Positions 37,325 to 42,809 of a stretch of DNA of 43,121 bases are shown piece after piece (positions within the stretch are counted from its first letter, which is position 1; each line of letters starts with the position of its first letter). The translations under genes and the position numbers were made by a program. The notes beneath the pieces were generated by a model. That model saw nothing but the letters and a program-made list of their open reading frames with translations. It was not told the DNA's origin and ran no database searches. The DNA comes from Nitrososphaerales archaeon (GTDB taxonomy: Archaea; Thermoproteota; Nitrososphaeria; Nitrososphaerales; JANXEG01): positions 1-43,121 of the forward strand of contig JANXEG010000004.1 in NCBI GenBank assembly GCA_025058425.1, read 5' to 3'.

Positions 37325-37903
37325 TTGAGTGGTACATTACCTCAAAAGAAGTATGAAGAATATGCGTATGTGCTCGACTTCATTCCAAGGGGAAAATCTA
37401 TCGTGATTAAAGGTAGAGAGGGGCCATTGGTTCAAGCTATAGGTAGTGAGTGGTTGACTTTACTAGAGATCCTCGCTATGAGGAATGTGAATTTTGAAGT
37501 GGGTGAGCGATTGTGTATAGGTAGAGAGGGTAGGACCAAAGTAATCAGTGTATTGGGCAAACTTACTTATAATGATTTGACCATAGAAGCTAAACAGGAA
37601 CTTCCAAACGTTGTAGAGAAGATCGTCAGAGAGAATGAGGCTAGGTTCGTTAAATACTTTAATGAATTACAACCTATCACCCCTCGATTACACGCATTAG
37701 AGTTAATCCCCGGTATAGGTAAGACCATTATGAGAGCGATTCTTGATGAAAGGGAGAAGAAGCCATTTCAAAGTTTCGAAGATATAGAGAAGAGGGTCGG
37801 TCTAAAAGATCCGGCAAAACTTTTAGCTAAAAGAATCGTAGAGGAGATCAGTGGCTCTCCACGAGTGATAATCTTCGTAGGTAGCCGAAAGACCTTTAGA
37901 TAA
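37325..37903 (+). CDS. DUF655 protein with OB fold and helix-hairpin-helix
   Basis: A 192-residue archaeal-specific protein. The N-terminal OB-like part (about 10-95) is followed by a helix-hairpin-helix with LELIPGIGKTIMRAIL (about 127-142) and an FQSFEDIEKRV segment of the type used in DNA/RNA binding. It is always near rpoF and KsgA in archaea, suggesting a nucleic-acid role, but no activity is known to me. TTG start with GGAAGG about 7 nt upstream. It lies 69 bp before the KsgA-HemK fusion. Confidence 0.93.
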   Translation: MSGTLPQKKYEEYAYVLDFIPRGKSIVIKGREGPLVQAIGSEWLTLLEILAMRNVNFEVGERLCIGREGRTKVISVLGKLTYNDLTIEAKQELPNVVEKIVRENEARFVKYFNELQPITPRLHALELIPGIGKTIMRAILDEREKKPFQSFEDIEKRVGLKDPAKLLAKRIVEEISGSPRVIIFVGSRKTFR

Positions 37904-37972
37904 TTTTTTAAAGTGCGAAATAGATACAAACGAATTGAGTTAACTATATGAGATTTGATTTGTGATGATTTG

Positions 37973-39280
37973 ATGGATCGGAAAAGGAGAAGGTTAGGGC
38001 AACATTACGTGATCGATGAGGGTGTTATTGAGAAGATAATAAAATTTGCCAATATTTCTAATGATGAAATTGTATTTGAGATTGGTAGTGGTGAAGGACA
38101 GTTGACCGAAAGGCTCTGTAGATTAGGTAAAAAGGTAATCTCTTGCGAAATCGATCGAAATCTCTATGAAAGGGCCAAGGTCAAATTAGAGCATTTTAAG
38201 AACCTCGAGCTTATCTGTGCAGATGGATTCACATTAAAGCACCGATTCGATGTATTGGTGGCGAACCTTCCTTATTCACAGTCGAAGAGGTTTATCCTAT
38301 GGCTCTCTGATAAAACATTCAAAAGGGCTGTAGTAACCGTTCAAAAAGAATTTGCTGAAAAGCTTTTAGCAAGGCCTCGATCGAAGAATTATCGTGCGAT
38401 CAGTGTATTCGCACAGGCTTTATTCTCCATAACACCTCTAGAGGATGTAAGCCCTGATGCCTTTTATCCGAGGCCCAAAGTCACTTCAACGATCATTCTT
38501 ATAGAGCCTAAAGAGCATGTAAGGAGAGTCGATATCAACATACTTGAGAAGATCTTTTCATTTCGAGGGAGAAGGTTATCTACCATGTTCAAGATCGTTG
38601 CAAAGAGGGTTGGGATCGATGTAGATGAACTTTTATCGAGTTTCCCCTTTTCTCAAAAGAGAGTAGAAGATCTGAGCATCGATGAAATCATCCAAGTAGC
38701 AGATAGATTATCGAAATATTATCGATATGATGAAGTATATCGACCGAGCGAAGATACCCTATTCCTTTGTGATAAAGTGAGAAGTTCAAGCACATCCTTA
38801 GTGCTAGAAATAGGGGTCGGTTCAGGACTCGTTACCGAAGAATTGGCAAGATTCTGTGATAAGGTTGTAGGCTCAGAGATTAATAGAGAAGCCTTGATTC
38901 AAGGGCGTAAGCATTTGATAGAAAAGGGGTTGTGGGAAAAAGTTGATCTTATCTGTTGTGATGGTGCTTCGGCTTTTAGACCATCATCCTTCCCATTGAT
39001 CGTTTTCAATCCTCCTTATCTACCATCGAAGGCCATTGAAGATTTGGCGGTAGATGGAGGTAGGGGTGGTATCGAAGTGGCCAATCATATCTTACTACAA
39101 GCTACCAATGTGCTTCAAAGAGGTGGAAAGATACTATTCGTGTTATCGAGCCTTTCATCTTACAAACGTTTGTTGAATGAATGGAAGCGAAAAGGCTTTA
39201 AAGTCAGGATCATCGATAAGAAGAGGTTATTCTTTGAGGAATTACTCTTAATTGAATTTGAAAAGCCTTTAGATAGTTAA
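37973..39280 (+). CDS. ksgA: KsgA/Dim1-HemK/Mtq2 fusion: rRNA adenine dimethyltransferase fused to a glutamine methyltransferase-like domain
   Basis: One 435-residue reading frame contains two SAM methyltransferases. Residues about 1-240 are KsgA: LGQHYVID, EIGSGEG (36-42), CEID, NLPY (98-101), and the C-terminal helical domain with YPRPKVTSTIILIEP. Residues about 250-435 are a HemK/Mtq2-like domain: YRPSEDTLFLCD, EIGVGSGLVTEEL, FNPPYLP (NPPY 346-349) and VDGGRGGIEVANHIL. KsgA dimethylates the two adjacent A residues at the 16S 3' end; NPPY enzymes of the Mtq2 type methylate the GGQ Gln of release factor aRF1. These are usually two adjacent genes in archaea. ATG 37973 is preferred to TTG 37955 because KsgA proteins begin near RRLGQ. 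Confidence 0.94.
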   Translation: MDRKRRRLGQHYVIDEGVIEKIIKFANISNDEIVFEIGSGEGQLTERLCRLGKKVISCEIDRNLYERAKVKLEHFKNLELICADGFTLKHRFDVLVANLPYSQSKRFILWLSDKTFKRAVVTVQKEFAEKLLARPRSKNYRAISVFAQALFSITPLEDVSPDAFYPRPKVTSTIILIEPKEHVRRVDINILEKIFSFRGRRLSTMFKIVAKRVGIDVDELLSSFPFSQKRVEDLSIDEIIQVADRLSKYYRYDEVYRPSEDTLFLCDKVRSSSTSLVLEIGVGSGLVTEELARFCDKVVGSEINREALIQGRKHLIEKGLWEKVDLICCDGASAFRPSSFPLIVFNPPYLPSKAIEDLAVDGGRGGIEVANHILLQATNVLQRGGKILFVLSSLSSYKRLLNEWKRKGFKVRIIDKKRLFFEELLLIEFEKPLDS

Positions 39281-39298: not shown

Positions 39299-40396
39299 TC
39301 ATGAACTATGAATTTCGACTATATCTTTATCTTCTAATAAGAAATTTTCTCCAACTCTAACCCCTTGCAGAGAACCTTCTCTCCAGACCTTTGCGTATTT
39401 GAAAAACTTCACTAAGTCTTTATGGACCTTTTCTGCAACATCGATGACACGTGCACCTTTCTTCATCAACAACGGCTTCTCAGCTACAGCATCTCCCAAG
39501 CTCTTCGTGTATACTCGAATATAACCGGACTTTTGAAGTATAGAATTGGCGAGCGAAGCCCGATCTGCAACAGATGTGATAATACGTTCTTCATCTATGA
39601 GACTCAATAACTCAGTTCTTATCCGTTCATCTAATGGAATGAATAAAGCCTTCTTTACAACCCTGCCGAATAACGCCGATTCTACATCTTCTAACGTCGC
39701 CTCACCATAGATCTTGACGATCGCGTTTCTAATTTTGTAACTGGAGAGAAACTTAATAACCTCCCAATCACTAAGCGCTTTTGCGTAATTTACGACTCTC
39801 AACCCCCCACTCGATGTATGGATTATTTCAACGAATGTATTAGATGGACGTATGTCGATATTATGCTCCTCAAGCCATGTGAACACCCTTTGAAGATACA
39901 TAGTACCTTCAGATCCTAAAACTACGATGATGATATCTACATTGCGTATTAAGTTCATAATGCGTTCCTGCTTCTCTACACCGATCGATTCATCAAATGG
40001 GGTGAGGATTACTTGGAACTGGATACCTTCGCCTTCGAGTACTCCAACTACAGGTGCATGTAATACTTCATAAATATTTATATCTCGATTCGTAACGAAT
40101 TTAAAGAATCGTATCGATGTATGAAGAGAGCCCAAAATAGCCAATTGAACCATACCCTCCTTCTTTACTACCCACTCTAGCCTTGTAGACCCTCTACGCC
40201 TCGATCTACTACGTTCTATCTCCTCTTCTAACGACTTGATCTGCTTCTTGATCGATACCTCTAACTTTTCAGTCCCCTTATGTTTGGGGAAGCTCGAGTA
40301 AAATTCTTTGAGTAATTTTAACTTGGTAACGGGATCTCTAGCCGCTATTGCCTCAGCCCACTTCGCCTTCGCCCTTTCAGGTAGATTGATAACCAT
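39299..40396 (-). CDS. DRG-like TGS-domain protein with degenerate GTPase domain
   Basis: A 365-residue protein colinear with archaeal/eukaryotic DRG (Obg-related) GTPases. The N-terminal basic helical region (about 1-75) matches the DRG arm, and the C-terminal TGS domain (about 290-363) has GYIRVYTKSLG, DVAEKVHKDLVKFFKYAKVW and RVGENFLLEDKDIVEIH. The intervening G domain has lost its motifs: the P-loop GFPSVGKS position is GSLHTSIR (89-96) with no Lys/Ser, DxPG is absent (VILTPFDES), and no NKxD is seen. The fold is probably kept, but GTP binding is unlikely. ATG start, divergent from the TrmJ-like gene. The role may be scaffold-like in translation, which is inference. Confidence 0.85.
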   Translation of the reverse strand: MVINLPERAKAKWAEAIAARDPVTKLKLLKEFYSSFPKHKGTEKLEVSIKKQIKSLEEEIERSRSRRRGSTRLEWVVKKEGMVQLAILGSLHTSIRFFKFVTNRDINIYEVLHAPVVGVLEGEGIQFQVILTPFDESIGVEKQERIMNLIRNVDIIIVVLGSEGTMYLQRVFTWLEEHNIDIRPSNTFVEIIHTSSGGLRVVNYAKALSDWEVIKFLSSYKIRNAIVKIYGEATLEDVESALFGRVVKKALFIPLDERIRTELLSLIDEERIITSVADRASLANSILQKSGYIRVYTKSLGDAVAEKPLLMKKGARVIDVAEKVHKDLVKFFKYAKVWREGSLQGVRVGENFLLEDKDIVEIHSS

Positions 40397-40444: not shown

Positions 40445-41146
40445 ATGGAGAATTTAGCTGTAGCGATCGTCGAGCCACTCTATGAAGTGAATCTGGGTCA
40501 TATAGCAAGAGTGATGAAGAACTTCGGTGTAAACGATCTAATACTGATCGATCCAAAGGTCGGGATAAATGAAGCGATGAAGTTCGCCTCCCATGGTTCA
40601 GAGATTCTCAAGAATGCTCGAATAAAGAGCTTAAATGAGTTGAGAAAAGAGTTTACTCTATTGGTCGGTACGACCGCTGTAACTGGTAAGAGCCCTTTGA
40701 ATATCTTAAGGATTACAATATCTCCTGAAGAGTTGGCTGAACGGTTAAGGAGTTACGGTGATAAGGTCTGTATCTTATTGGGCCGTGAGACAACGGGTTT
40801 AAGAAATGATGAATTATCACTATGTGATGTAGTGGTAAGTATAACGACCGGAACCGATTACAACACACTGAACGTGGGGCATGCATTGGCTATAATCTTA
40901 TACGAACTTTCCAAGGTGAAGATAGGTGAGATAAAGAGAGAGGTCGCTTCTCAAGAAGATAGAATGAGATTGGTAGAGTATGCATTAAAGTTGGCCGAAT
41001 CCTCGGGTTACGCTTCCCATAAATTACACCTATTAAGGGAGAGTCTAGTTCGTATATTGGGCATCGCCCAGCCTACACCGAAAGAAGTTTACCTCATTAT
41101 GGGTTTACTACGCAAAGCACTTCTAGCGATCGAATCTACCCGATAA
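40445..41146 (+). CDS. trmJ: TrmJ/SpoU-type tRNA 2'-O-methyltransferase
   Basis: A 233-residue SPOUT (trefoil-knot) methyltransferase. Motif 1 VNLGHIARVMKNFGV (about 15-29), motif 2 ILLGRETTGLRNDELSLCD (about 117-135), motif 3 TTGTDYNTLNVGHALAIILYEL (about 139-160) are present in order. The group methylates nucleotide 32 of tRNA. A C-terminal helical extension of about 60 residues is present. ATG start is close to the divergent TATA elements, and no Shine-Dalgarno is seen. Confidence 0.92.
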   Translation: MENLAVAIVEPLYEVNLGHIARVMKNFGVNDLILIDPKVGINEAMKFASHGSEILKNARIKSLNELRKEFTLLVGTTAVTGKSPLNILRITISPEELAERLRSYGDKVCILLGRETTGLRNDELSLCDVVVSITTGTDYNTLNVGHALAIILYELSKVKIGEIKREVASQEDRMRLVEYALKLAESSGYASHKLHLLRESLVRILGIAQPTPKEVYLIMGLLRKALLAIESTR

Positions 41147-41266: not shown

Positions 41267-41788
41267 GTGAAAGGAAGGAATTATCGTATACCTAGTGGTA
41301 TGCCTTACACTAGAAGAGAGTTTATTCCAGGTGCTCCACAATGCAAAATAGCAAAATTCTCTGCAGGTTCTCCCCATGAAGATTACGATGTGAAACTTCA
41401 ATTGATATCGGATGGTAGGGTTCAGATAAGGCACAACGCTTTAGAAGCAGCAAGAATCGCGATCAACAAGAAGTTGAGCGATATAGGGGATAAAAATTAC
41501 TACTTACAAGTAAAGGTTTATCCTCACATAGTACTTCGAGAGAATAAGATGATCGCAACAGCGGGTGCAGATCGATTACAAGAGGGGATGAGAAGAGCGT
41601 TCGGTAAACCCGTCGGCTTAGCTGCGCGAGTATCGAGAGGCAGTGTACTCTTTGAGATAAGCGTGAAGAAAGAGTACTTGGATCGAGCAAAAGAAGCTCT
41701 AAAAGCGGCTTCAACGAAACTCCCCGTAATTACTAAGATAAAAGAAATCCCTTTGAAAACTACACCACCTGTTAAAGCAGCCTCCTAA
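41267..41788 (+). CDS. rpl10e: Ribosomal protein L10e (uL16)
   Basis: A 173-residue large-subunit protein near the peptidyl-transferase centre. The archaeal L10e pattern GRNYRIPSGMPYTRREFIPG, KFSAGSPHEDYDVKLQLISDGRVQIRHNALEAARIA and the basic loop AGADRLQEGMRRAFGKPVG are complete. The start is GTG; the nearest in-frame upstream ATG is followed by a stop. It is followed after 19 bp by dph2. Confidence 0.97.
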   Translation: MKGRNYRIPSGMPYTRREFIPGAPQCKIAKFSAGSPHEDYDVKLQLISDGRVQIRHNALEAARIAINKKLSDIGDKNYYLQVKVYPHIVLRENKMIATAGADRLQEGMRRAFGKPVGLAARVSRGSVLFEISVKKEYLDRAKEALKAASTKLPVITKIKEIPLKTTPPVKAAS

Positions 41789-41807: not shown

Positions 41808-42809
41808 ATGTTAAAGATCGATGAAGAGAAGATATTTTTGGAGATCGAAAGGAGAAGGCCTCGTAGTATAGTCTTTAATGCGCCCAGTGGATTGTTATCG
41901 AGGGTTCAGGATATTGCAATAAAGGTTCAAGAGAAGTTTAACGTAATAACATACATTATAGCCGATCCTTGCTATGGTATTTGTGATACCTTTAATTATG
42001 ATGCCCAAAGGTTGGATGCGGATATAATCTTCCACATAGGTCACACTATATCGATGGATAAGATCGGTGATAGAACGATCATCATCGACGCTTATGATGA
42101 CACACCCTTTGATGAAGTGTTACGCAAAGCCATCTTACACTTAAAGAATTATTCTGTTGTAGGATTATGCACCATCAGCCAACATTTACATAAACTTAAC
42201 GAAGCGAAGTCCTTTCTAGAAAGGTTTGGATTCAAAGTTTTGATAGGTAGGGGAAAGGGTAGGTTGATGGATGGCCAGGTCTTAGGTTGTGAATTTCATA
42301 CGGTCTATGAGATTAAGGATCTGGTAGATGTATTTGTGTTTCTGGGGCAGAGCATCTTTCATGCCATAGGGGTGGGACTCTCTACGAACAAACCAGTATT
42401 TATGCTCGACCCCTACCTCCAAGAAGTTACCGACCTTCGACAGACGATCTCAGATAGGATGAAGAGATCGATACTTGCTATATACAGAGCGCGTGATGCA
42501 GAGCTTTTAGGTATAGTGATAGGGTTGAAGGAAGGTCAGATGGCATTAGATAAAGCTCTTGATTTAAAGATTAGGTTAGAAAGGTTGGGCAAGAAGGTTC
42601 AACTGATCGCCCTACGTGAGGTAACGAGTGAGAGATTGGCTGAGTTATCGAAGATCGATGCATTCATCCAAACGGCCTGCCCCCGCATCTCCATCGATGG
42701 TTATACATTTAACAAACCTGTACTTTCTATACCACAGGCTGAATCGTTGATCCATCTTCTTACCACTGGTGAATTCCAAGACTTCTTCCAAAGGCCGTTA
42801 TGGCTCTAA
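41808..42809 (+). CDS. dph2: Diphthamide synthase radical-SAM-like subunit Dph2
   Basis: A [4Fe-4S] enzyme that transfers the aminocarboxypropyl group of SAM to the EF2 histidine, the first step of diphthamide formation. The 333-residue protein has the three cluster-cysteine regions: ADPCYGICD (C55/C59), QVLGCEFH (C161), and TACPRISIDGY near residue 288. A homodimer is expected in archaea. ATG start, 19 bp after L10e, with AAAGGAG upstream. The last enzyme Dph6 is in this same window. Confidence 0.95.
   Translation: MLKIDEEKIFLEIERRRPRSIVFNAPSGLLSRVQDIAIKVQEKFNVITYIIADPCYGICDTFNYDAQRLDADIIFHIGHTISMDKIGDRTIIIDAYDDTPFDEVLRKAILHLKNYSVVGLCTISQHLHKLNEAKSFLERFGFKVLIGRGKGRLMDGQVLGCEFHTVYEIKDLVDVFVFLGQSIFHAIGVGLSTNKPVFMLDPYLQEVTDLRQTISDRMKRSILAIYRARDAELLGIVIGLKEGQMALDKALDLKIRLERLGKKVQLIALREVTSERLAELSKIDAFIQTACPRISIDGYTFNKPVLSIPQAESLIHLLTTGEFQDFFQRPLWL

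Follow-up and report, generated by a model that had tools for sequence, protein, structure and literature searches.

The window, by which we mean the whole 43,121-nucleotide stretch of contig JANXEG010000004.1 from a Nitrososphaerales archaeon, carries on its reverse strand an open reading frame (39299-40396) that begins with ATG and encodes 365 amino acids followed by a stop codon. We refer to its product as pseudo-DRG. The gene belongs to a conserved block with the order SRP54-Pus10-L21e-Rpb4-DUF655-KsgA-HemK-DRG-SpoU-L10e-Dph2, in which DRG lies on the opposite strand. In the window, a DUF655 protein (37325-37903) provides the conserved upstream context and is followed by KsgA (RrnaAD) fused to a HemK-like methyltransferase (37955-39280), which is convergent with pseudo-DRG; a SpoU/TrmJ-type RNA methyltransferase (40445-41146) is divergent from it and precedes two further members of the conserved context, ribosomal protein L10e (41267-41788) and a Dph2-like diphthamide synthesis protein (41808-42809), all of these on the forward strand. 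KsgA and the HemK-like methyltransferase share a single 441-residue frame in the window, and occupy adjoining separate frames in a sister genome (L005) and others. The block, whole or partial, was found with DRG in families f1, f3, f14 and f16 and, outside Nitrososphaeria, in f24 and f49. In f5 g27 (G163; L196, L184) the block is intact without DRG and pseudo-DRG lies on another contig; the f5 g18 relatives of G163 carry canonical DRG, unlike G163 itself.

Pseudo-DRG has a DRG-type layout of HTH, Rossmann core, S5D2L and TGS, all encoded on the reverse strand. The N-terminal arm and HTH (residues 1-68, MVINLPERAKAKWAEAIAARDP...FPKHKGTEKL...; 40193-40396) contain the arm pattern MxxNLPxxAKAxW...PKHKGTE and are modelled as helices 7-18, 22-35 and 43-68. 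Within them, Lys40 (40277-40279) aligns with the NKATE lysine at the HTH apex of DRGs, a position that we take to be Lys22 of human DRG1. The first part of a degenerate GTPase core (residues 82-187; 39836-40153), whose beta/alpha core is present in the structure model, precedes an S5D2L-like insert (residues 188-246; 39659-39835), assigned from the model, its conservation and a weak Pfam match that falls under the curated cut-off (MMR_HSR1_Xtn, PF16897, E 0.0011). The TGS domain (residues 292-364; 39305-39523) was detected by Pfam as PF02824 (1.7e-12, residues 293-363), and Pfam reported no GTPase-domain family in the protein. When compared with solved structures, pseudo-DRG matched yeast Rbg2 throughout from residue 24 onwards (phmmer, 9e-12), and a profile built from 16 relatives matched Rbg2 (6.7e-41) and Rbg1 (1.1e-37) over nearly the full length, S5D2L included. 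An AlphaFold model, for which the input comprised 11 window and related-locus sequences, had a mean pLDDT of 82.5 and a pTM of 0.65; its four best PDB matches in Foldseek were Rbg1 and Rbg2 chains (4a9a, 7rr5, 7nrc), the best being Rbg1 4a9a (E 5.7e-22) with a TM-score of 0.60, a moderate score. Thus, Rbg2 and Rbg1 are the closest solved relatives by sequence profile and Rbg1 by fold, which bears out the DRG ancestry proposed in an earlier note made from the letters alone.

That note had also claimed that Walker A, DxPG and NKxD are missing, and their positions are indeed occupied by GSLHTSIR (G1, the former P-loop; residues 89-96; 40109-40132; alignment and model), LTPF (G3; residues 131-134; 39995-40006; alignment) and LDER (G4; residues 255-258; 39623-39634; alignment), all on the reverse strand. 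In the model, strand 83-88 passes into helix 91-102 via a 2-residue connection which, on our reading of the secondary structure, would leave no room for a P-loop. We found close relatives sharing its N-terminal arm in 39 of the 250 Nitrososphaeria genomes searched, including records under the names Nitrosocaldus and Nitrosothermus, and every one of these proteins lacks the G motifs. Not one of the 40 aligned orthologue rows from Nitrososphaeria has G1, G3 or G4 (a few of these rows are near-duplicates because the same genome is included in two collections), and in many orthologues a deletion has removed the G4 segment. Loss of the P-loop, which the earlier note had wished to see followed across orthologues, therefore runs throughout the clade. 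With the fold retained in the model and the motifs gone clade-wide in the alignment, classification as a pseudoGTPase is supported, which would mark out an archaeal group of proteins not to be annotated as GTP-binding.

The protein is nevertheless not decaying. The clade evolves under purifying selection: for pairs within it dN/dS was 0.04-0.29, with dS saturated in some pairs. Reading frames are intact. Mean identity within the clade was highest in the arm and HTH (0.58), followed by TGS (0.43) and S5D2L (0.41), and reached only 0.25 in the first and 0.20 in the second half of the G core, compared to 0.76 and 0.57 for the same halves in canonical DRG. Selective conservation of the arm and TGS, as the earlier note had put it, thus holds, and the G core persists in the model as a fold but has diverged. 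The nucleotide site was thus freed of constraint while other regions stayed under it. The HTH apex lysine (K40) was K in 40/40 pseudo-DRG rows, 8/8 f24/f35 rows, 2/2 f37 rows and 63/63 rows of the armed DRGs described below, as well as in all 8 canonical rows that align at this position. Separately, members of f13 and f17 (L024-L027, L043-L048) contain a GxxxxGKS string in the GGIRIVGKS stretch of S5D2L, at residues about 183-205, which looks like a chance Walker-A look-alike.

DRGs with the same N-terminal arm (M-x-x-N-L-P...P-K-H-K-G-T-E) occur in other classes of the phylum. The arm as a novelty of the pseudo-DRG clade was accordingly rejected, as it is common to P-loop-bearing DRGs across Thermoproteota; the conservation that the earlier note ascribed to it is real, but the arm is diagnostic of a DRG subfamily found in Thermoproteota and not of DRGs generally. 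Among the armed DRG rows (L064-L093 and L124-L158), GxxxxGK[ST] was present in 58/63 and [NT]KxD in 48/63, and DxPG in 0/63, with DTPP, EAPA and similar at its place. In the tree, armed rows including the pseudo-DRG clade were split from canonical DRG with a support of 100. The pseudo forms of Nitrososphaeria formed a single clade, supported at 91 (at 99 when a smaller tree was computed), and this clade lay within the armed group, whose branch order was partly weak. Pseudo-DRG thus derives from a Thermoproteota-specific armed DRG, and loss of G3 predates that of the P-loop, because the whole armed subfamily already lacks DxPG.

The neighbours of the pseudo-DRG clade in the tree were f44 and f49 members with a P-loop and f24/f35 members without one. 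P-loop loss had separate occurrences in f37 and in one f45 member, and the tree requires at least 4 changes. The P-loop positions read GRQDLKNS and GRQELKNR in the f37 rows (L124, L146) and GYPGPGREA in the f45 row (L144); f37 is a family in which large complete genomes are present. A single P-loop loss shared by Nitrososphaeria and f24/f35 was not rejected by the AU test (p 0.056), and two losses, with Nitrososphaeria apart from f24/f35, are favoured but not proven. Loss was thus selective, as first proposed, but it was not one event: G3 went earlier and P-loop loss recurred. Only one Nitrososphaeria genome, G047, has a P-loop-bearing armed DRG (L042; L140, G047:C84); this protein clusters among DRGs of other classes, its locus context is absent, and it may come from a contaminant contig or a transfer.

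We also searched for canonical DRG, using a query from G003 and tallying the search rows by hand. Out of the 250 Nitrososphaeria genomes, 39 carried pseudo-DRG, 1 the armed DRG with a P-loop, 186 canonical DRG and 24, mostly drafts, neither form, and in 0 were both present. Canonical DRG was found in none of the 39 pseudo-DRG carriers, where the best match was no better than about 1e-18. The genome of the window itself, which the earlier note had suggested be searched for an active DRG paralogue, yielded none: its best match to canonical DRG reached only 2.5e-18, and its other two TGS proteins are YchF-type with intact P-loops (L002:1480-2688, L004:475-1692). Four canonical carriers have the block without DRG (L192-L195), and in the three whose DRG region was read (L180-L182) canonical DRG lies away from the block. 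Furthermore, 60 genomes belonging to other families within the phylum were searched, and none had a separate canonical DRG. These data fit an acquisition of canonical DRG inside Nitrososphaeria with displacement of the pseudo form, from which it would follow that the two share a job; likewise, their mutual exclusion suggests a single DRG slot in which a canonical GTPase DRG can replace pseudo-DRG. The exclusion is in part phylogenetic inertia, and kinship cuts the number of independent cases.

The role of pseudo-DRG can be approached through yeast Rbg1, in which the HTH and GTPase domains contact the 60S subunit at the GTPase-associated centre with a contribution from TGS, and S5D2L contacts the A-site tRNA (PMC8629797). 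Deletion of the HTH or TGS abolishes Rbg1 function and deletion of S5D2L is milder, and the HTH apex lysine is hydroxylated in the DRGs of higher eukaryotes (PMC8629797). The role as a ribosome scaffold that the earlier note proposed for pseudo-DRG is plausible on sequence grounds because this lysine is invariant, and we favour a factor that stays on the ribosome constitutively and has no GTP cycle because the parts expected to contact the ribosome are the conserved ones. We therefore prefer a reading, with a probability of roughly 0.6, in which pseudo-DRG descends vertically from the armed DRG of Thermoproteota, its GTPase domain, which has lost its motifs at sequence level, has become a presumably nucleotide-free structural core, and the protein still docks on the ribosome without a GTP cycle. 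It would bind the large ribosomal subunit in the vicinity of its GTPase-associated centre via its N-terminal HTH/arm and TGS, direct S5D2L toward the A-site tRNA as Rbg1 does, and stabilise or unblock stalled ribosomes constitutively, with binding and release probably set by the state of the ribosome or by protein abundance. It would fill the genome's single DRG slot, which a canonical GTPase DRG can take over. Because DxPG was lost earlier in the whole armed group, the route would have run through loss of hydrolysis first and of nucleotide binding later. In yeast, however, growth is not restored by an Rbg1 variant that has no GTPase activity, and mutation of the GTPase domain weakens ribosome binding (PMC8629797); the archaeal protein would therefore have had to escape this requirement, and independence from GTP would amount to a genuine shift in mechanism. 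More tentatively, the entire armed branch might act on the ribosome without GTP hydrolysis, the P-loop being a dispensable remnant discarded by several lineages; if so, the conserved core task of DRG would not be a GTPase cycle, and the GTP-free form could be displaced by a canonical GTPase DRG in one step.

A less likely explanation is that pseudo-DRG has abandoned the DRG job and been repurposed as an accessory factor, an RNA-binding chaperone for ribosome assembly or rRNA/tRNA modification working with KsgA, HemK, SpoU/TrmJ and L10e. Its conserved place between rRNA/tRNA methyltransferase and ribosomal-protein genes, and the strong conservation of its N-terminal arm, are what such a factor would lead one to expect. 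However, pseudo-DRG lies on the opposite strand and is thus not co-transcribed with its neighbours, in f5 g27 it is found elsewhere while the KsgA-SpoU block is intact, and canonical DRG, which sits elsewhere too, apparently substitutes for it.

It is also improbable that a nucleotide is still bound through migrated or unusual residues. Pseudoenzymes are able in general to relocate motifs (PMC10211241), and the GxxxxGKS string of the f13 and f17 members could be read as such a case, but the string falls within the GGIRIVG stretch of S5D2L, and neither the protein of the window nor the majority of its orthologues has it. Moreover, the model joins beta-1 and alpha-1 by just 2 residues, and many members have the G4 segment deleted. 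The loss of all G motifs and the high divergence of the G core might suggest a decaying GTPase relic, yet open frames intact in dozens of genomes, the low dN/dS, the conserved locus and an arm that is the most strongly constrained region make this very improbable, and gene decay was rejected. An error of sequencing or assembly, conceivable for one draft metagenome-assembled genome of 101 contigs, was rejected with near certainty, as the motifs are absent from all 40 clade rows and the same loss is seen across many families in assemblies made independently of one another, the named Nitrosocaldus and Nitrosothermus records among them.

Our preferred reading, a DRG descendant docking on ribosomes without GTP, bears on a question of wider interest, since the role of the DRG GTPase cycle is unsettled though DRGs occur in eukaryotes and archaea. 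Canonical GTPase, P-loop without DxPG, and no motif form a natural series in one single-copy slot, in which the need of DRG functions for GTP becomes testable. That the motifs are lost, the ribosome-contacting parts kept and the protein, though widely conserved in archaea, never found beside a normal DRG suggests a translation factor able to work without GTP. The G motifs have been called highly conserved between DRG homologues (PMC8629797), and in the open-licence literature we found no description of an archaeal DRG without them or of a pseudoGTPase in the DRG/OBG family, nor any characterisation of the armed DRGs of other Thermoproteota.

Compared with Rbg1/DRG1 and Rbg2/DRG2 (4a9a, 7rr5, 7nrc), pseudo-DRG has the same domain order (HTH, then a G core with S5D2L, then TGS), apex lysine and fold, but it lacks G1, G3 and G4, has an added N-terminal arm (MxxNLPxxAKAxW) and is about 20% identical in structural alignment. 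It resembles the armed DRGs of other Thermoproteota in arm, domains, absence of DxPG and, for f49 and f24 members, locus, whereas most armed rows keep the P-loop and [NT]KxD. With the canonical Nitrososphaeria DRG (L055-L063) it shares the family and the single-copy slot; the canonical protein, however, has intact G motifs, no arm and another locus, and never shares a genome with pseudo-DRG. YchF/OLA1-type OBG GTPases (1wxq) also have TGS, to which the sequence match is confined, but they differ in domain layout and their P-loop is intact. Finally, the p190RhoGAP domains (PMC5593906) and septins (PMC10731463) are likewise conserved proteins that keep the GTPase fold and have lost G motifs, although they are eukaryotic and belong to families other than DRG. 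Conserved pseudoGTPases as such are thus already known; what would be new here is one within the OBG/DRG family.
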